Shown here: in pieces, positions 1 to 7,374 of the stretch | How the letters are laid out: each line of letters begins with the position of its first letter | How positions within the stretch are numbered: position 1 is the first letter of the stretch | Source of the DNA: a bacterium | GTDB taxonomy: Bacteria > Thermosulfidibacterota > Thermosulfidibacteria > Thermosulfidibacterales > Thermosulfidibacteraceae | Length of the DNA stretch: 7,374 nucleotides | Direction of reading: 5' to 3' | NCBI GenBank assembly: GCA_027022065.1 | Contig: JALVZS010000164.1 | Span: 1 to 7,374 of the forward strand | The notes under the pieces: generated by a model | The model's input: the letters and a program-made list of their open reading frames with translations, nothing else | Database searches by the model: none | What the model was told of the DNA's origin: nothing | Made by a program: the position numbers and the translations under genes

Positions 1-153
1 GTTAAGCCCGTTCCTGTTTACATCCACAAAAATCCTGTGCAGGGTTATGCCATAGCCATAATGGTTGTTATCATGCTGCTTCTTAACTTCATGCTGATTC
101 TGGACTTCTTCCTTTCAAAGGGAGAAAAGGTGGAATCCTATGAATCTGCGTGA
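1..153 (+). CDS. C-terminal end of an unidentified membrane protein (5' partial)
   Basis: Frame 1 is open from the first base to a TGA at 151-153, giving the last 50 residues of a protein that begins outside the window. About 14 polar/basic residues are followed by a strongly hydrophobic stretch (roughly residues 15-38 of the visible part, rich in Ile, Met, Val, Leu and Phe). That is long enough for one membrane span, and it ends in a short charged tail with SKGEKVES. The last 14 nt overlap the start of the next gene, so the two are probably translated together. I do not recognise the family. The fragment could be the last span of a polytopic permease or respiratory subunit, or a single C-terminal anchor; nothing visible separates these. 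The reading frame is credible because of the tight overlap with the downstream gene and the coherent hydrophobic profile. Confidence 0.72.
   Translation, partial: VKPVPVYIHKNPVQGYAIAIMVVIMLLLNFMLILDFFLSKGEKVESYESA
127..133 (+). promoter_or_regulatory. Ribosome binding site for the 93-residue protein
   Basis: AAGGTGG, a good Shine-Dalgarno match, ends 6 nt before the ATG at 140. It lies inside the coding sequence of the upstream membrane protein and supports ATG 140 as the real start. Confidence 0.7.
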
Positions 154-421
154 TCTATTGGATTTTTTGAGAAAGACTACGGATGGGATACTTCAGGGGA
201 TAAAGGATAGAAGTGTGGATGTTTTGGAAGAGGAGCTGAAGGAGATGGAGGGTGCCTTTGCCCTCCTTCTCCTCGGCTCCTTTATAGGGCTTCCCTCTCC
301 TCCCTCCTTTGTGGGCCTGGCCCTTTTGCCCTACATGGAGAGGGAACTCATTGTGGCTCTTACACGCTCAAGGTTTATAGACGATCCTGCGGCTTTCTGG
401 TTTGAGATAGCGGACATATGA
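140..421 (+). CDS. Small hypothetical protein with Pro-rich hydrophobic hairpin, ArsA-like ATPase neighbour
   Basis: A 93-residue protein of unknown function. Residues 1-37 look like a charged, amphipathic helical region. Residues 38-51 are hydrophobic (GAFALLLLGSFIGL), then comes the turn PSPPS (52-56), then a second apolar stretch ending LLPYM (57-66), and finally a mixed tail. The shape (short apolar arm, proline turn, short apolar arm) suggests a re-entrant or peripheral membrane hairpin rather than a normal two-span protein, but this is inference. The start is supported by the AAGGTGG site just upstream. The stop overlaps the next gene in an ATGA arrangement (418-421), so it is very likely translationally coupled to the ArsA-like ATPase and may act with it. 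There is no signal peptide and no cysteine. I cannot name the family. Confidence 0.78.
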   Translation: MNLRDLLDFLRKTTDGILQGIKDRSVDVLEEELKEMEGAFALLLLGSFIGLPSPPSFVGLALLPYMERELIVALTRSRFIDDPAAFWFEIADI

Positions 422-1338
422 GGAGCTTCTTTATATTTCTGGGAAAGGGTGGAGTTGGAAAGAGCACTTCCTCTGCCTCGCTGGCCTATACTTTGGCCGA
501 TAGGGGAGAGAGGGTTTTCTGGTTTTCTGTGGATCCTGCCCATAACCTCTCTGATATAACCGAGGTTGCGCTTGATAAGGTAAAAAATGTCTTTAAAAGG
601 CTGGACGCCTTGGAGGTGGATGTTTCTGCTTACATGCAGAGATACCTTAAAGAGACCATCAGACGTATGAAATCCTTATACAAGCAGCTTTCTGTTGTGG
701 GACTTGAGAGCATGGTGGACGCTCTCAGATTTTCTCCTGGGATGGAGGAGGTGGCCATTCTTTATGCAGTGGGCGAGATACTTGATGCTTATGCCGATAA
801 ATACGACTATCTTGTCATGGATACGCCGCCCACGGGGCTGAGCATGAGGATACTGGCCCTTCCCAAGATAAATATGGAGTGGATCCATGTGCTTCGCATG
901 TGGAGGCTGAGGATACTTCAGAAAAGGCAGATGATAGCCTCTGTAAAGGGAAGGGATTACTTTCCCCAAGATGTGGCCCTTGATGAGGGGGAGGATAAGG
1001 TGCTTGGGGAGATCTCCCGCCACATGGACTTTATGAATAGGATGTGGGATACCTTTGCGGATGCAAGCTGTAGGAAAATACTGGTTGTAAACCAGGACGA
1101 GCTCTCCGTCAAAGAGGGGTTGAGGATCAAGGAGACACTAAAGGAGCTTGGTATGTCCCTTGCCGCGGTTCTCGTTAACAAGTTCGGGCTTATTCCCGGA
1201 AGGCAGATTGATGTAAAAGGAGCCTTTGAGGGGGTTCCCGTGTATGAGGTTCCCTTCCTGGAGGGCAGAGAAAAACTCACCGTGGAGGATCTTTTCCATA
1301 TAGGTAAGGGCTGGGTGGAGGGGGTTCTTTCCCGGTGA
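418..1338 (+). CDS. ArsA/Get3-family ATPase (single domain)
   Basis: A 306-residue P-loop ATPase of the ArsA/Get3 branch of SIMIBI NTPases. Directly visible are the deviant Walker A GKGGVGKST at residues 9-17 (signature Lys10, Lys15), switch I DPAHNLSD at 39-46 (ArsA normally has DPAHSLSD), switch II DTPPTG at 135-140, and a C-terminal core with VNQDELS (224-230) and VLVNK (251-255). These fit a cytosolic, nucleotide-driven dimer that cycles with a membrane partner. Family members power arsenite export (ArsA) or deliver tail-anchored membrane proteins (Get3). There is one cysteine (Cys218), so neither the ArsA metalloid-binding cysteines nor the Get3 CxxC zinc site is present. It is one ATPase domain, not the duplicated ArsA of proteobacterial pumps, and no arsB, arsC or arsR is adjacent. 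Residues 143-209 are Met-rich (seven Met), as in hydrophobic client-binding segments. Start ATG 418 overlaps the previous stop; the stop overlaps the next GTG. The family is certain, the substrate unknown. Confidence 0.93.
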   Translation: MRSFFIFLGKGGVGKSTSSASLAYTLADRGERVFWFSVDPAHNLSDITEVALDKVKNVFKRLDALEVDVSAYMQRYLKETIRRMKSLYKQLSVVGLESMVDALRFSPGMEEVAILYAVGEILDAYADKYDYLVMDTPPTGLSMRILALPKINMEWIHVLRMWRLRILQKRQMIASVKGRDYFPQDVALDEGEDKVLGEISRHMDFMNRMWDTFADASCRKILVVNQDELSVKEGLRIKETLKELGMSLAAVLVNKFGLIPGRQIDVKGAFEGVPVYEVPFLEGREKLTVEDLFHIGKGWVEGVLSR

Positions 1339-1940
1339 TATCAGGGTGGCTATTTGCTCTGTTTGTTGTATTCAGCTTGATCCTTGTGGTTTCCTTCTAC
1401 TGGGGAGTTAAGGCCAATATAAGAAAGGCAAAGGAGGTGGCAGCGGAGCTTGAGAAGGCCCTTTCTCCGGATGATAAAAAGTACACCTGGTTGGGTGGTG
1501 TTATAGGCTTTTACGCAGAGTATAAGGTTAGGGGTTTTTCTAAGATTACCGCCACCCTCCGTCTTATACCCAGACACGCCGTTCTTTGGCTTCCCATAAC
1601 CTTTCTTATTGGAAGAAGGGATACATTGCAGATGCTGTTCTTTCTGAAGATGCCGGTTAAAGGGGAGTGCCATGTGGTAAGAAAGGGTAAGAAGGTGAAG
1701 ATATACAATATAGAGAAGCTAAAAGAGGAGGCGGAGGACAACTGGAGGTTGCTTTTTGACAGTAAAGAGCAGCTTGAAAGGCTGAGACCTCTGCTAAAAC
1801 CCTTGGAGCCCTTGTTGATTCACTGTGCCTTAACGCCTGATAATAGGGTGCTTTACCTCAATCTTTTGGTTCCTGCTGGAGGCTTGGAAAGGGCCTTGAA
1901 GGAGTTTAAGTCCAGGCTTATAAGATGCAGGGGCTTTTAG
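1335..1940 (+). CDS. Hypothetical membrane-anchored protein, last gene of the ArsA-like cluster
   Basis: A 201-residue protein starting at a GTG that overlaps the ATPase stop (GTGA at 1335-1338), so translation is probably coupled. Residues 5-24 form a clear N-terminal membrane segment (LFALFVVFSLILVVSFYW region) followed by a basic and then acidic helical stretch (25-45, KANIRKAKEVAAELEKAL). This is consistent with an N-terminal anchor and a cytoplasmic domain by the positive-inside rule. The body contains WLGGVIGFYAEYKV (52-65), a basic patch with LIPRHAVLWLPITFLIGRRD (77-96), and a helix-rich C-terminal half. Cysteines at 112, 164 and 198 form no recognisable metal motif. I do not recognise the family. 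By context it is a candidate membrane partner or receptor for the ArsA-like ATPase, which is inference. The stop codon overlaps that of the convergent sugar transferase gene. Confidence 0.82.
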   Translation: MISGWLFALFVVFSLILVVSFYWGVKANIRKAKEVAAELEKALSPDDKKYTWLGGVIGFYAEYKVRGFSKITATLRLIPRHAVLWLPITFLIGRRDTLQMLFFLKMPVKGECHVVRKGKKVKIYNIEKLKEEAEDNWRLLFDSKEQLERLRPLLKPLEPLLIHCALTPDNRVLYLNLLVPAGGLERALKEFKSRLIRCRGF

Positions 1941-2590
1941 TATGCACCTTTTCCGGTTACCACCACAAAGAATGTCTTTAATATTATCTTGAGATCCAGC
2001 CAAAAGGACATTTTTCTTACATACTCCAGATCAAGCCTTATGCGCTCTTCAAAGGGCAACTCGTTTCTCCCGCTTACCTGCCATAGACCTGTAAGCCCAG
2101 GTTTAACAGAGAGAATCTCCTCTGGTACATTGTGCTCCTCAAGCTCGCTGAAAAGATATGGTCTTGGTCCCACTATGCTCATCTCTCCTTTGAGCACATT
2201 TATGAGCTGCGGTAATTCATCCAGGCTGAACTTGCGCAGGAATCTTCCCACTGGGGTTAGGCGGGGGTCGTGCTTCCTCAACTTCTTGTATCTCTTCCAC
2301 TCCTCAAGGGCCTTGGGATTGTTTTGGAGGTATTCTTCAAGTATGTGTCCGTTGTTTACATACATGGTTCTGAACTTGTAGAGTGTGAAGCTTCTGCCGT
2401 TGAGTCCAGGCCTTTCCTGTTTGAATATGATCTCTCCCCTGCTCGTTAGCTTTATGGCCAGTGCCACAAGAAGCATTATAGGGGAGGTAAGGACAAGAGC
2501 GGTGGATCCTATGATGAGATCCATGGGCCTCTTCCACCAAGGGATGGGACTGGTTGTAACGGCTATCCTCTCCGCCTTTTCTGTAAGCAT
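1937..2590 (-). CDS. Undecaprenyl-phosphate sugar-1-phosphate transferase, minimal ExoY/WbaP-type
   Basis: A bacterial sugar transferase (PF02397 family), 217 residues. It moves a hexose-1-phosphate, typically Gal-1-P or Glc-1-P, from a UDP-sugar onto undecaprenyl phosphate at the inner membrane, the first step of O-antigen or exopolysaccharide assembly. Visible features: a hydrophobic segment about 22-48 containing TSP (35-37), matching the proline-kinked re-entrant membrane helix of monotopic transferases; KFRTM (72-76); the catalytic Asp-Glu pair in SLDELPQL (Asp124, Glu125); GEMSIVGPRP (135-144); PGLTGLWQVSGRN (164-176); and a GKGAY end like WbaP/ExoY. The N-terminal four-span region of WbaP/WcaJ is absent, so it is the short ExoY-like form. 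ATG 2590 is the first possible start: an in-frame TAA lies 7 codons upstream. A promoter precedes it. The adjacent, divergent rhamnose genes suggest a shared glycan. The sugar specificity cannot be read from the sequence. Confidence 0.95.
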   Translation of the reverse strand: MLTEKAERIAVTTSPIPWWKRPMDLIIGSTALVLTSPIMLLVALAIKLTSRGEIIFKQERPGLNGRSFTLYKFRTMYVNNGHILEEYLQNNPKALEEWKRYKKLRKHDPRLTPVGRFLRKFSLDELPQLINVLKGEMSIVGPRPYLFSELEEHNVPEEILSVKPGLTGLWQVSGRNELPFEERIRLDLEYVRKMSFWLDLKIILKTFFVVVTGKGAY

Positions 2591-2612
2591 CTTTCTTAAA
2601 CGCTTTTTTTAG

Positions 2613-2618
2613 GATAAT
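2613..2618 (+). promoter_or_regulatory. Possible -10 element for the rfbCBD operon
   Basis: GATAAT (5/6 to TATAAT) lies on the plus strand almost exactly on top of the -10 of the minus-strand promoter. A start near 2625 would give a 33-nt leader to ATG 2658. No acceptable -35 lies 15-18 nt upstream (that region is CTTTCTT-like), so the call is weak and an activator or another sigma factor might be needed. Confidence 0.3.
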
Positions 2619-2642
2619 ATCAGCAACATACCTGAGTATCAA
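2614..2642 (-). promoter_or_regulatory. sigma70-type promoter of the sugar transferase gene
   Basis: On the minus strand, TTGATA (2642-2637, 5/6 to TTGACA) and TATTAT (2619-2614, 5/6 to TATAAT) are separated by exactly 17 nt. Transcription would start near 2607, leaving a leader of only about 16 nt before ATG 2590. A purine stretch (AAGAAAG) directly precedes the ATG; no strong Shine-Dalgarno is visible. This is the best promoter match noticed in the window. Confidence 0.68.
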
Positions 2643-2656
2643 GTTTGGGGGTATGT
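2626..2656 (+). repeat. Inverted repeat around the rfbC ribosome binding site
   Basis: ACATACC (2626-2632) is the exact reverse complement of GGTATGT (2650-2656), with a 17-nt loop. In RNA the right arm overlaps the G-run used as the rfbC ribosome binding site and abuts the start codon at 2658, so pairing could hide them. A smaller dyad, ATAC-CTGA-GTAT (2628-2639), lies inside it and covers part of the -35 of the divergent promoter, so an operator is an alternative reading. The repeat is seen directly; the function is inference. Confidence 0.4.
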
Positions 2657-2657
2657 G

Positions 2658-3227
2658 ATGCCCTTTGTTTTTGAGAGGCTTCCCATTGAGGGGCTGGTTC
2701 TTGTAAAGCCCAAGGTCTTTGTGGATGATAGGGGATTTTTTATGGAGTTTTACAAAAGAAGCGATTTCGCCAGTGCAGGCATAGATGTGGATTTTGTCCA
2801 GGATAACCACTCCCGCTCAACAAAAGGTGTTCTTAGAGGTCTTCACTATCAGCTGGAGCCCAAGGCCCAGGGAAAGCTGGTAAGATGCGTAAGGGGTAGA
2901 ATCTTTGATGTGGCGGTGGATGTAAGGAGAGGCAGTCCCACCTTTGGCAAGTGGTTTGGGGTTGAGCTGAGTGAGGAAAATCACCATATGCTTTGGATTC
3001 CCAAGGGGTTTGCCCACGGTTTTCTGGTGCTCTCTTCGGTTGCGGAGGTTATTTACAAGGTCTCGGGGGCCGAGTACGCTCCTGAGTATGAGAGGTGTAT
3101 AAGGTGGGACGATGAGGAAATAGGGATAGACTGGCCCCTTGATGGGGAACCTATCCTTTCCAAAAAGGATGCAAATGCCCCTTTATTGAGGGATGCTGAA
3201 ATAAACTTTGTTTGGAGGCGGAGTTGA
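2658..3227 (+). CDS. rfbC: dTDP-4-dehydrorhamnose 3,5-epimerase
   Basis: RmlC/RfbC, 189 residues, the usual family size. It epimerises dTDP-4-dehydro-6-deoxy-D-glucose at C3 and C5, giving dTDP-4-dehydro-L-rhamnose, step 3 of dTDP-L-rhamnose synthesis in the cytoplasm. The cupin fold motifs are in place: FVDDRGFFMEFY (21-32), VLRGLHYQ with catalytic His63, Lys73 after QG, Asp84 in RIFDVAVDVRRG, IPKGFAHGF (114-122), and the YK pair with catalytic Tyr133. A GTG at 2655 is in frame, but the G-run at 2647-2651 sits about 6 nt from ATG 2658 and only about 3 nt from the GTG, so ATG 2658 is preferred. Another ATG at 2653 is out of frame and meets a stop at once. It is the first gene of the rfbC-rfbB-rfbD run, diverging from the sugar transferase. 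Its stop TGA overlaps the TTG start of rfbB. Confidence 0.96.
   Translation: MPFVFERLPIEGLVLVKPKVFVDDRGFFMEFYKRSDFASAGIDVDFVQDNHSRSTKGVLRGLHYQLEPKAQGKLVRCVRGRIFDVAVDVRRGSPTFGKWFGVELSEENHHMLWIPKGFAHGFLVLSSVAEVIYKVSGAEYAPEYERCIRWDDEEIGIDWPLDGEPILSKKDANAPLLRDAEINFVWRRS
3214..3218 (+). promoter_or_regulatory. Ribosome binding site that sets the rfbB start
   Basis: GGAGG lies 5 nt before TTG 3224 and inside rfbC. It decides between two TTG codons: TTG 3212 would lie upstream of and partly over this site, while TTG 3224 is ideally spaced and overlaps the rfbC stop as TTGA. Confidence 0.7.
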
Positions 3228-4216
3228 GGGTCCTTGTAACAGGTGGTGCAGGGTTTATAGGCAGCGAGTTTGTAAGGCAGGGGGTTGAAAGGGGATATGA
3301 AATAGCGGTTTTGGACAAGCTTACCTATGCGGGGGATATGGCCAGGCTTGAGGATGTAAAGGACAAAATATCCTTTTACAGGTGTGATGTTACAAACAGG
3401 GAGTTTGTGGAGCATGTATTTTCCGTGGAGAAGCCCGATGTGGTGGTGCATTTTGCGGCAGAAAGCCATGTGGACAGAAGCATACTGGATGCCACCCCCT
3501 TTCTGGACACAAATATTAAAGGCACTCAGGTGATGCTGGATGCGGCTAGAAGGTTTGGGGTTTCTCTTTTTGTGAATATAGCCACGGACGAGGTTTACGG
3601 GGAGCTTGGAGAAAGCGGCCACTTCTATGAAAATACACCCCTTAACCCCAACTCTCCCTATTCTGTAAGCAAGGCTGCGGCGGATATGCTGGGGAGGGCT
3701 TACTACAGGACATACAGACTCCCAGTGGTGACGGTAAGGCCCTGCAACAACTATGGACCCTGGCAGTATCCCGAAAAGCTCGTTCCCGTTGTGATCCTTA
3801 GGGCTTTGAGAAATCAGGAGGTTCCCGTATACGGAAGGGGAGAGAATGTAAGAGAGTGGCTCTATGTAGGGGACTGTGCAGAAGCCATCTGGACTGTTGT
3901 GGAGAGGGGGAAAGCCGGAGAGATATACAACGTTGGGAGCGGTCAGGAGAGGCGCAATATAGAGGTGGTAAAAACCATCCTCTCCATTATGGGGAAGCCT
4001 GAAAGCCTTATAACCTTTGTTAAGGACAGGCCCGGACATGATTTCAGATATTCTCTTTGCTCCGAAAAGATAAAAAAGGAGCTTGGTTGGGAGGCGAAAA
4101 CGGAGTTTGAGGAAGGGATGGAGAAGACAGTGAGGTGGTATCTTGAACACAGAGATTGGCTTGAGAGCAAGGCCCAGGAGCTGGAGGAACTTTGGAGGAG
4201 GGTTTATAAAAAGTGA
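3224..4216 (+). CDS. rfbB: dTDP-glucose 4,6-dehydratase
   Basis: RmlB/RfbB, 330 residues from a TTG start, an NAD-dependent extended short-chain dehydrogenase/reductase. It converts dTDP-glucose to dTDP-4-dehydro-6-deoxy-D-glucose, step 2 of dTDP-L-rhamnose synthesis. Visible features: the Rossmann motif TGGAGFIG (6-13), DKLTYAG (31-37) for NAD ribose contact, HFAAESHVDRS (76-86), the active-site triad segment ATDEVYG with Thr121-Asp122-Glu123, YSVSK with Tyr146 and Lys150, RPCNNYGPWQYPEKLVP (172-188) for nucleotide-sugar binding, and DRPGHD (268-273). TTG 3224 is chosen over TTG 3212 because GGAGG (3214-3218) is correctly spaced, the protein then starts MRVLVTGGAG as relatives do, and the start overlaps the rfbC stop. 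The 3' end overlaps rfbD (GTGA). The motif usually read as DRPGHDRRY has Phe274 here (DRPGHDFRY), a minor change. All catalytic residues are present. Confidence 0.97.
   Translation: MRVLVTGGAGFIGSEFVRQGVERGYEIAVLDKLTYAGDMARLEDVKDKISFYRCDVTNREFVEHVFSVEKPDVVVHFAAESHVDRSILDATPFLDTNIKGTQVMLDAARRFGVSLFVNIATDEVYGELGESGHFYENTPLNPNSPYSVSKAAADMLGRAYYRTYRLPVVTVRPCNNYGPWQYPEKLVPVVILRALRNQEVPVYGRGENVREWLYVGDCAEAIWTVVERGKAGEIYNVGSGQERRNIEVVKTILSIMGKPESLITFVKDRPGHDFRYSLCSEKIKKELGWEAKTEFEEGMEKTVRWYLEHRDWLESKAQELEELWRRVYKK
4194..4202 (+). promoter_or_regulatory. Ribosome binding site of rfbD
   Basis: GGAGGAGGG within the end of rfbB ends 10 nt before GTG 4213. The inner GGAGG is strong though slightly far from the start. 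Together with the 4-nt overlap it supports the GTG start. Confidence 0.5.
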
Positions 4217-5061
4217 GGTTTCTCATTCTTGGGGCAAACGGCCAGTTGGGAAGGGCATTTATGGAAGCCTTGGGGGATAGGGCCGTTGGTTTGGGAAAAA
4301 GGGAGTGTGATGTTTCTAACCTACAGGATGTCTTGGACGCTGTTTCCAAGTTCAGGCCTTCTGTGGTTATTAACTGCGCCGCATACAACAGGGTTGACGA
4401 TGCAGAAAAGGACCCTTACAGCGCCTTCAAGGTAAACCATCTAGGGCCAAGGAATGTGGCCTTTGCCTGCAAAAGATACGGGGCCTTCTTTGTGCATTAC
4501 AGTACTGACTATGTTTTTGATGGAAAGAAGGAAACTTTGTACACCGAGGAAGATGTTCCCAATCCCTTAAACACCTACGGGAAGAGCAAGCTTTTTGGAG
4601 AAAGGGCGGTTCTTGAGGAGCTTGGAGAAGCGGAGCGTTTTTTGCTTTTCAGGGTGAGCTGGGTCTACGGTAAAGGGAAACAAAACTTTATATCAAAGCT
4701 TCTAAGCTGGGCAGAAGGCAGGGATAGACTGTTTGTCTCCTGTGATGAGTTTTCGGTGCCCACAAGCACCAGGGTCATTGTAGAAGGAACGCTTAAGAGC
4801 CTTGATGCGGGTCTTTTTGGCGTTTACCATCTTGTTTGTTCGGGTTTTGCCTCCCGTTATGAGTGGGCTAAAAAGGTTTTTGTGTTGCTAAACAGGAAGG
4901 TGTTTTTGCGTCCTGTGCACAGATCTTTCTTTTCGCTTCCTGCCGAGAGGCCTCCCTTTTCTGCTATGAGCAACGAACTTTTATGCAGTAAACTTTCCAC
5001 TTTTTTTCCCAACTGGGAGGAGGAATTAGAAAGATTTTTACCCATTTGCCTTTCACTTTAA
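4213..5061 (+). CDS. rfbD: dTDP-4-dehydrorhamnose reductase
   Basis: RmlD/RfbD, 282 residues, normal family length. It reduces dTDP-4-dehydro-L-rhamnose with NAD(P)H to dTDP-L-rhamnose, the final step. Visible features: GANGQLG (7-13) nucleotide loop, CDV (32-34), VVINCAAYNRVDDAE (51-65), STDYVFDG (97-104), YGKSK with catalytic Tyr122 and Lys126, FRVSWVYG (146-153), and a C-terminal RPPFSAMSN (246-254) matching the sugar-nucleotide-binding end of the family. The GTG start overlaps the rfbB stop by 4 nt. The C-terminal third has more Phe, Cys and Leu than the rest but no frameshift is seen. It is the last gene of the rfb run. No hairpin plus T-run follows, so transcripts may read on into the pyruvate carboxylase gene 47 nt downstream. 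rfbA is not in this window. Confidence 0.96.
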   Translation: MRFLILGANGQLGRAFMEALGDRAVGLGKRECDVSNLQDVLDAVSKFRPSVVINCAAYNRVDDAEKDPYSAFKVNHLGPRNVAFACKRYGAFFVHYSTDYVFDGKKETLYTEEDVPNPLNTYGKSKLFGERAVLEELGEAERFLLFRVSWVYGKGKQNFISKLLSWAEGRDRLFVSCDEFSVPTSTRVIVEGTLKSLDAGLFGVYHLVCSGFASRYEWAKKVFVLLNRKVFLRPVHRSFFSLPAERPPFSAMSNELLCSKLSTFFPNWEEELERFLPICLSL

Positions 5062-5070
5062 ACCGCACTG

Positions 5071-5079
5071 TGGTATACT
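5071..5079 (+). promoter_or_regulatory. Extended -10 promoter of the pyruvate carboxylase gene
   Basis: TGGTATACT is a full TGn plus TATACT (5/6) extended -10, directly after rfbD. Start would be near 5086, about 23 nt before ATG 5109. No good -35 exists at 17 nt (TTTCAC at 5051-5056). Extended -10 promoters often tolerate this. A 6-bp inverted repeat (ACTTTA 5055-5060, TAAAGT 5079-5084) and an imperfect direct repeat (5056-5066 and 5083-5093, 9 of 11 alike) bracket the element, so regulator binding is possible. Confidence 0.5.
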
Positions 5080-5108
5080 AAAGTTTAAAACGCTATTTGA
5101 GATGTGCC

Positions 5109-7374
5109 ATGCCTGTAAGGGAAATGCGCAAGGTTATGGCGGCGAACCGTGGAGAGATTGCCATAAGGATCTTTAGGGCCTGCACGGAGCTGGGCCTAAG
5201 AACTGTAGCCATCTACTCTTATGAGGATAGATTTTCCCTGCACAGGTACAAGGCGGATGAGGCTTACCTTGTGGGCAAGGGCAAGGATCCCATTGCTGCG
5301 TATCTGGACTACAACGAGATACTGGATATCGCTGTTGAGAAGGGGGTGGATGCCATACACCCTGGATACGGCTTCCTTGCCGAGAATGCGGACTTTGCCA
5401 GGGCCTGTGAGGAGAGGGGGATAATCTGGGTGGGACCCTCTCCAGAGGTTATAGAGCTTGTTGGGGACAAGGTCAGGGCGAGGAAGCTTGCGCAGAAACT
5501 GAATATCCCCGTTATCCCTGGAACGGAGGAGCCTGTGGAGCTTGTGGAGGATGCGTTAAATTTTGCAGAAACTGTGGGCTATCCTGTTATTATAAAGGCC
5601 GCGGCAGGTGGCGGCGGAAGGGGGATGAGGGTTGCGAGAAGCCCTGAGGAGCTGATAAGGTTCTACGATGTGGCCCGCTCTGAGGCGGAGAAGGCCTTTG
5701 GGGACTCCAGGGTGTTCCTTGAAAGGTATCTTGAGAGGCCCAGGCATATAGAGGTCCAGATCCTAGGGGATCACTACGGAAACATTGTGCACCTTTACGA
5801 GAGGGATTGTTCCATACAGAGACGCCATCAGAAGCTTATAGAGATTGCGCCTGCCAGAAACCTTGAGCAGTTCCTAAAAGAGCGCCTTTACGATGCAGCC
5901 TTGCGCCTGGCGAGGGAGGTGGGCTACTACAGTGCGGGCACCGTGGAGTTTCTGGTGGAGGATGGGAAATACTACTTTATAGAGGTAAACCCCAGAATAC
6001 AGGTGGAACACACTGTTACCGAAATGATTACGGGAAGGGACATTGTCCAGGCCCAGTTGAGGATAGCCCGTGGGGAATCTCTGGCGGACATAGGCATTGC
6101 AGGTCAGGAGTTTGTGAAAAAGAGTGGGTACGCTATACAGTGCAGAGTCACTACAGAAGATCCTGAAAACAACTTTGTGCCTGACACGGGGAAGGTCACC
6201 GTTTACAGAACCGCTGCGGGCTTTGGAATAAGGCTGGATGGGGGAAACGGGTTTGTTGGAGCACGCATAACTCCCTACTACGACTCCCTATTGGTTAAGG
6301 TTACAAGCTGGGCGCTGACCTTTAAGGATGCGGTTGCCAAGATGGACAGGGCTCTCAGGGAGTTCAGGATAAGGGGGGTGAAGACGAACATTCCGTTTCT
6401 GCTGAACGTTATCAACCATCCCAGGTTTATAGAGGGAACGTGCGATACTACCTTTGTTGACACCACCCCGGAGATCTTCAGATTCCCGGAGAGGAAGGAC
6501 AGGGGCAATAAGATCCTGAAATACATAGCAAACGTTACGGTCAACGGATTCCCGGGGATAGAAAAGGACAGGATACCCAGAATAACCGTGAGAGAGCCTG
6601 AAGTTCCCAAGGTTAAAGGGGAGCCGCCGGCCGGAACCAAGCAGATACTGGACGAGGCGGGAGCAGAGGCGACCGTTGAGTGGATAAGGTCAAGAAAAGA
6701 GTTGCTTATCACAGACACCACATTTAGGGATGCCCATCAGTCCCTTCTTGCAACAAGGGTGAGAACATACGATATGCTGAGGGTTTCCCCTGCCGTTTCC
6801 CACTTCATGCACAATCTCTTCTCCATGGAGGTGTGGGGAGGGGCCACCTTTGATGTGGCCATGCGCTTTCTCAAGGAAGATCCCTGGGAGAGGCTGGTTA
6901 AGCTAAGACAGAGGATACCCAACATACTCTTTCAGATGCTTCTCAGGGGTTCCAATGCGGTGGGATACACCAACTATCCGGATAATGTGGTCAGGGCCTT
7001 CATAAGGGAGGCTGCCGATGCCGGAATTGACCTATTTAGGATCTTTGACTGCTTCAACTGGATAGAAAACATGAAAATCTCTATTGAAGAGGCCCTTAAC
7101 ACGGGCAAGCTCGTTGAGGTGGCCATCTGCTATACATCGGATCTTACCAATCCCAATGAGACCCTGTATACGCTGGACTACTATGTGGGGCTTGCAAGGG
7201 AGCTGGCACAGATGGGGGTTCACATCATAGGTATTAAGGACATGGCGGGCCTCTGTAAGCCTCAGGCTGCCTATCAATTGGTGAAGGCCATCAAGGAGGA
7301 GACCGGGCTTCCTGTGCACTTCCACACCCACGATACCGCAGGAACGGGAATTGCCACCTACCTCGCGGCGGCAG
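5109..7374 (+). CDS. pyc: Pyruvate carboxylase, single-chain (3' partial)
   Basis: The first 755 codons of a biotin-dependent pyruvate carboxylase (family about 1150 residues); the rest lies beyond the window. It makes oxaloacetate from pyruvate, bicarbonate and ATP. Biotin carboxylase domain, residues 1 to about 457: AANRGEIAIR near the start, HPGYGFLAEN, Lys163, ATP-grasp loop GGGGRGM (167-173), RDCSIQRRHQK (Lys242), EVNPRIQVEH (292-301, Glu300 catalytic), QCRVTTEDP (Arg346). A linker (about 458-530) leads to the carboxyltransferase TIM barrel: DTTFRDAHQS (536-545), IGIKDMAG with Lys710, the lysine carboxylated at the metal site, and FHTHDT (metal-ligand His739, His741). The hinge to the biotinyl domain and the biotin-lysine motif are not reached. 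BC and CT on one chain separate it from split pyruvate or 2-oxoglutarate carboxylases and from acetyl-CoA carboxylase. ATG 5109 is preceded by a weak GAG at 5099; in-frame TTG 5097 and ATG 5124 are alternatives. Confidence 0.97.
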   Translation, partial: MPVREMRKVMAANRGEIAIRIFRACTELGLRTVAIYSYEDRFSLHRYKADEAYLVGKGKDPIAAYLDYNEILDIAVEKGVDAIHPGYGFLAENADFARACEERGIIWVGPSPEVIELVGDKVRARKLAQKLNIPVIPGTEEPVELVEDALNFAETVGYPVIIKAAAGGGGRGMRVARSPEELIRFYDVARSEAEKAFGDSRVFLERYLERPRHIEVQILGDHYGNIVHLYERDCSIQRRHQKLIEIAPARNLEQFLKERLYDAALRLAREVGYYSAGTVEFLVEDGKYYFIEVNPRIQVEHTVTEMITGRDIVQAQLRIARGESLADIGIAGQEFVKKSGYAIQCRVTTEDPENNFVPDTGKVTVYRTAAGFGIRLDGGNGFVGARITPYYDSLLVKVTSWALTFKDAVAKMDRALREFRIRGVKTNIPFLLNVINHPRFIEGTCDTTFVDTTPEIFRFPERKDRGNKILKYIANVTVNGFPGIEKDRIPRITVREPEVPKVKGEPPAGTKQILDEAGAEATVEWIRSRKELLITDTTFRDAHQSLLATRVRTYDMLRVSPAVSHFMHNLFSMEVWGGATFDVAMRFLKEDPWERLVKLRQRIPNILFQMLLRGSNAVGYTNYPDNVVRAFIREAADAGIDLFRIFDCFNWIENMKISIEEALNTGKLVEVAICYTSDLTNPNETLYTLDYYVGLARELAQMGVHIIGIKDMAGLCKPQAAYQLVKAIKEETGLPVHFHTHDTAGTGIATYLAAA

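Follow-up and report, generated by a model that had tools for sequence, protein, structure and literature searches.

The window analysed here, a stretch of 7,374 nucleotides of bacterial DNA, opens with what is almost certainly a cstA-cstX-arsA-cstY operon. The small hydrophobic protein CstX, the ArsA-type ATPase and the membrane-anchored protein CstY very probably work together as an accessory complex of CstA, a polytopic transporter. More tentatively, CstY could be a prokaryotic homologue of the core of CCDC47, and would then make up, with the Get3-like ATPase and CstX, an assembly machine for one transporter family.

Gene content and layout of the operon

The four reading frames and the evidence for each product are as follows.

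1..153, + strand: 3' end of cstA, with its 5' end open; the remainder is on contig G000:C2 (L006:3-1748, strand -)
140..421, + strand: cstX, 93 aa with a single hydrophobic segment that is kinked; a remote relative of NCBIfam cory-CC-star, found in the same position in relatives
418..1338, + strand: arsA, a single-domain ArsA/Get3-family ATPase of 306 aa without CxxC (Pfam, TIGR00345, motifs)
1335..1940, + strand: cstY, 201 aa from a GTG start, with a predicted N-terminal TM helix and alpha/beta domain (AF2 model, VIA-align, weak Pfam CCDC47 matches)

The frames overlap by 14, 4 and 4 nt, exactly as an earlier note on this DNA had described. The identical 14/4/4 pattern was found in a relative (L003), and the 4-nt overlap of arsA and cstY is repeated in many loci; since the overlaps recur in relatives, the frames are real genes. 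In two relatives with the whole region present (L003 and L005), the order is cstA, a gene of about 93 aa, arsA and a gene of about 205-214 aa. The rest of the window (1937-7374) contains ordinary neighbours, namely a bacterial sugar transferase gene on the - strand and then + strand genes for a dTDP-rhamnose-type epimerase, dehydratase and reductase and for a carboxylase with biotin-carboxylase domains. No arsenic gene was found in the window, in agreement with the earlier note.

To identify the truncated first gene, which the earlier note could only call a membrane-protein tail, we obtained the sequence upstream of position 1. Contig G000:C2 of the same genome and the window share 146 nt, in which the only mismatch, at position 127, is an A/G difference between draft contigs that is probably strain variation. 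The joined frame encodes 582 aa and matches Pfam CstA with an E-value of 6.6e-123. Judged by this match, the first gene is cstA, which encodes carbon starvation protein A of the pyruvate/peptide transporter family, and the gene set is therefore cstA-cstX-arsA-cstY. The note had held that an unrelated enzyme subunit in this place would speak against its proposal; the gene turned out to encode a membrane transporter.

By analogy, the most likely substrate of CstA is pyruvate, because E. coli CstA and its relative BtsT are pyruvate importers (PMC5847655), and because LytS/LytTR genes adjoining the operon in L034 and L036 give indirect support. Genes for a LytS-type (5TMR-LYT) histidine kinase and a LytTR response regulator adjoin cstA-cstX-arsA in three loci (L034:8764-11201, L036:148-2582 and L038:9224-13000), and are of the same kind as the pyruvate-sensing systems that control btsT in E. 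coli (PMC10653868).

Relation to the operons described before

Operons of this kind were described by Castillo & Saier in 2010 (PMC2963123), who reported ArsA homologues of about 300 aa encoded together with cstA and a single-TMS CstX of about 90 aa, as well as a single-TMS CstY of about 210 aa in five archaea only. In that work, CstX and CstY were regarded as putative CstA auxiliaries, the four proteins CstA, CstX, ArsA and CstY were found to co-evolve, and CstX was proposed as the coupling between ArsA and CstA. The operon in the window has the same four genes: cstA is in the same operon, the ATPase is single-domain with 306 aa (about 300-330 aa in the published operons) and without ars genes, and CstX and CstY, with 93 and 201 aa, have one hydrophobic segment each. 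The earlier note had called the system undescribed and placed it in thermophiles. Neither description stands, since the cstA-cstX-arsA(-cstY) association has been in print since 2010 and its cstA-cstX-arsA part also occurs in halophiles, Bacillus and others (PMC2963123). Thermococcus kodakarensis is among the carriers which that paper lists. What is new here is the range of CstY, which also occurs in bacteria of many families; we equate it with the archaeal CstY by size, position and gene set. For the function of cstA-cstX-arsA-cstY, we found no paper that tested it.

Distribution and linkage of CstX and CstY

In a sample of 386 bacterial genomes around the source genome, CstA was matched in 188, CstX in 25, CstY in 13 and PF04328, the family of the small E. 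coli proteins YbdD and YjiX, in 7. Six of the PF04328 genes lie within 450 nt of a cstA match and one lies 2.7 kb off. CstX and PF04328 have no genome in common, in numbers (25 and 7) that are too small to prove exclusion. Of the 24 CstX genomes opened, 23 have CstX beside arsA. All 13 sampled CstY genes adjoin arsA and, on contigs of sufficient length, cstX and cstA as well.

With targeted searches of further groups, the CstY set grew to 61 loci, which represent 56 distinct genes. It turned out that 55 of the 56, rearranged loci included, are beside arsA, cstX or cstA, the remaining one, on a fragment, having no link in view. For 52 of the distinct genes arsA is upstream on the same strand within the retrieved stretch, and in 44 it is within 60 nt. 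In three loci of one family, cstY is divergent from cstA; both of the two that were opened have cstA-cstX-arsA on the other strand. That the linkage survives rearrangement speaks for a functional tie and against compaction alone. Besides, CstY follows one ArsA clade in the sequence tree: with 73 rows, 2 changes account for the CstY label, where shuffles need 14.6, and the exceptions inside the CstY clade (L043 and L044) are both long branches. The earlier note had suggested a search for relatives of the small proteins and named their absence beside arsA elsewhere as a reason to give up its proposal; they proved to be conserved companions of the same ArsA clade.

The ArsA-type ATPase

The family assignment made from the sequence alone was borne out, since the ATPase matches Pfam ArsA_ATPase with an E-value of 5.3e-45 and TIGR00345 with 142 bits, over the cut-off of 135. 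Its motifs GKGGVGKS, DPAHN and DTPPTG match the Get3/TRC40 P-loop GKGGVGK[ST] and switch motifs DPAH and DT[AP]PTG. The nucleotide-binding motifs are thus intact, and the protein has the superfamily, the deviant P-loop and the switch motifs in common with Get3/TRC40 and ArsA ATPases. It is the only full-length ArsA match in the source genome, where the others are short P-loop matches.

The arsenite-pump ArsA has two fused ATPase domains (about 580 aa) and As(III)-binding cysteines, and Get3/TRC40 has a CxxC zinc motif at the dimer interface. The window ATPase differs from both, as it has one domain, no arsenic cysteines and no CxxC, and its gene is linked to cstA. The CxxC motif is absent from this protein and from 15 relatives; the former has one cysteine and the latter have 0-2 each. 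We rejected an arsenite-pump ATPase by the single domain, the missing arsenic cysteines and the missing ars genes, and a canonical Get3 by the missing CxxC. In such genomes, the annotation "ArsA" misleads towards arsenic.

CstX

The three relatives closest to CstX, which occupy the same position, are 47-58% identical to it. CstX matches NCBIfam NF041419 (cory-CC-star) over residues 28-69 with an E-value of 1.6e-4 and 21.6 bits, which is far from the cut-off of 80 bits, and it ends in ADI, not in CC. A literature search for "cory-CC-star" returned nothing. The earlier note had described the protein as a hairpin. Its one hydrophobic stretch with a GLPSPP kink makes this plausible, but the AF2 model (pLDDT 59) is too poor for interpretation or fold comparison, and CstX has been called a single-TMS protein (PMC2963123). 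For a further candidate identity, the CCDC47 partner Asterix, Pfam gave no support: no match to the Asterix family occurs among 16 CstX proteins.

CstY and its likeness to CCDC47

CCDC47 is a human membrane-protein assembly factor and a part of the PAT complex of the eukaryotic multipass translocon. We compared it with an AF2 model of CstY (pLDDT 68.8, pTM 0.61, parts of residues 78-121 weak), which was made from a shallow alignment of 4 sequences (the window and L003-L005). The model has a long N-terminal TM helix and then an alpha/beta domain, predicted to be cytosolic. Foldseek gave no significant match (best E 0.63). Among its candidates, VIA-align ranked the CCDC47 chain 7tm3_4 first (Z 8.9, 182 of 201 residues, 3.8 A), with 9i78_4 second (Z 8.0) and 6w6l_7 fourth (Z 6.1), while the third place went to a phage T4 domain that is unrelated (Z 6.2 over 95 residues). 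The top four thus include all three CCDC47 chains, which were confirmed as CCDC47 by sequence and cover 163-182 residues at 9-15% identity. The structural match extends from the TM helix to CCDC47 residue 396 (model residue 201), and CstY would therefore correspond to the core of CCDC47, with the flanking parts missing. In this model of moderate confidence, CstY has the fold of TM helix and globular domain in common with CCDC47 but no room for the N-terminal acidic region, the C-terminal latch helices or the ribosome-binding coiled coil, and no relative of Asterix was found among 16 CstX proteins.

The sequence comparisons were made with a human CCDC47 probe identical letter for letter to PDB 6w6l and with Pfam CCDC47 (PF07946). 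PF07946 is matched in 15 of 43 diverse CstY members (best E 6.1e-5) and is the only recurrent Pfam match of CstY, no other family being matched in more than 3 of the 43. Wherever a member was shown singly, its match spans profile positions 6-42 (the TM and the part after it), and all matches shown are below the cut-off of 27.7 bits (15.5 for the window CstY, 19.3 for the best). Over 40 genomes, the PF07946 HMM reached its cut-off in none and matched CstY loci weakly (E 0.02-0.9) and unrelated loci equally. In profile-profile comparison with CstY, a CCDC47 profile built from two sequences scored 30.6, where the highest shuffle score was 18.8, but with single sequences and with larger alignments the scores were among the decoys. 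By eye, the invariant N28 and the near-invariant G24 of CstY fall on a G-x3-N after the CCDC47 TM, at an offset of +132 that is the same as at the start of the structural match. Likewise by eye, R80...D96-x-L-Q99 has the spacing of human CCDC47 R-x15-D-Q-V-Q. The matches of the first CstY profile to 14-3-3 and other PDB sequences were due to chance and were gone with a larger alignment.

From the modelled fold and these matches, homology of CstY to CCDC47 appears somewhat probable. It is also quite possible, at a little short of even chances, that the likeness is due to chance or to a very general fold resemblance, of the kind of a type-III-secretion-chaperone alpha/beta domain behind a TM helix. 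Matches to CstY with Z 4-6 also come from T3SS chaperones and from the C-terminal domain of phage T4 MotA, which fits such a resemblance, as do the Foldseek result, the decoy-level profile-profile scores and the PF07946 cut-off reached in 0 of 40 genomes. However, the T3SS-chaperone and MotA matches among the first nine cover 95-113 residues, against 163-182 for the CCDC47 chains; CCDC47 is independently the only recurrent Pfam match, which lies over the TM/juxtamembrane part; and by eye, CstY and the human protein agree in two spacings, G-x3-N behind the TM and, within the domain, R-x15-D-x-[LV]-Q.

Prokaryotes are said to lack PAT components (PMC9630114), which are also said to have no obvious bacterial homologues (PMC13261788), and our literature search found no paper proposing a prokaryotic CCDC47. 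If CstY is CCDC47-like, these statements need revision, and a small prokaryotic system whose single obvious client is CstA would make the mechanism of factors of the CCDC47 and Get3 types directly testable. If CstY is a homologue and also belongs to an assembly machine for CstA, a part of the PAT/multipass-translocon machinery would predate eukaryotes.

Possible roles of the accessory proteins

The mechanism that we favour, with about an even chance of being right, is an ATP-driven assembly or maturation module dedicated to CstA. Here, a membrane anchor would hold CstY with its domain facing the cytosol, CstX would contact CstA through its short kinked hydrophobic segment, and the ATPase, as a homodimer, would go through an ATP-dependent cycle of binding and releasing CstX/CstA. 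This cycle may aid the folding, assembly or maturation of CstA, in the way that Get3 and CCDC47 aid other membrane proteins. The presumed client would be encoded directly ahead of the ATPase, the CCDC47-like protein and the small hydrophobic partner.

Several lines of evidence point to such an accessory or assembly role: the gene identities, the linkage of CstY (55 of 56) and CstX (23 of 24), the single ArsA clade, the published co-evolution (PMC2963123), the CCDC47-like CstY model with the recurrent Pfam CCDC47 matches, and the LytS/LytTR genes in L034 and L036. A small adjacent protein, YbdD, is also required for CstA-dependent pyruvate uptake in E. coli (PMC5847655). The earlier note had proposed that the three neighbours of the ATPase are its partners in membrane targeting, insertion or transport. 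Their conserved companionship supports the partnership; an insertion or targeting role is a possibility that gains from the CCDC47-like modelled fold of the 201-aa protein. Against an assembly module, CstA of E. coli functions with neither ArsA nor CstY, and since most of the 188 CstA-bearing genomes have no CstX, CstA in general does not need the module. Besides, the ATPase without CxxC is not a canonical Get3, and the link to CCDC47 is one of predicted fold, which the sequence does not establish.

The main rival, rather unlikely in our view, is that the ArsA homologue energises CstA transport directly, as ArsA does for ArsB in arsenic pumps. CstX would couple ATP hydrolysis and CstY would be an auxiliary subunit, as in the proposal of Castillo & Saier 2010, and the operon linkage and co-evolution fit this (PMC2963123). 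However, the CstA-family transporter BtsT is annotated as a pyruvate:H+ symporter in E. coli and needs no such ATPase, and the ATPase has neither the two-domain layout nor the cysteines of ArsA.

It is less likely still that the ATPase, CstX and CstY gate, regulate or turn over the finished CstA by energy state, with no part in assembly or energisation. CstA belongs to a starvation-linked transporter family, and the E. coli gene btsT is followed by yjiX and the P-loop GTPase gene yjiA, which suggests a recurring NTPase companion. But none of the three proteins was seen to have a regulatory domain, and the CCDC47-like fold, if real, points to biogenesis.

Related and variant loci

A CstA-family transporter with a small protein and a P-loop NTPase is a recurring layout, in which the small proteins are of different families. 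For instance, E. coli btsT-yjiX-yjiA (L041:3910-7280, by annotation) repeats the layout of the window with non-homologous parts: YbdD and YjiX are PF04328 proteins of 65-67 aa that both end in CC, YjiA is annotated as a GTPase, and neither CstA-YbdD nor BtsT-YjiX-YjiA has CstX, ArsA or CstY.

A CstX-like gene (L040:1427-1717) was found in a genome without a CstA match and has no adjoining arsA. In one family, a 97-aa frame without a Pfam match lies between arsA and cstY (L081:1204-1497 and L085:2134-2427). Some CstY-negative operons (L045, L047, L049, L050 and L051) have two tandem arsA genes of two separate tree clades, which would suit a heterodimeric ATPase, and L049 and L050 have two cstX genes.
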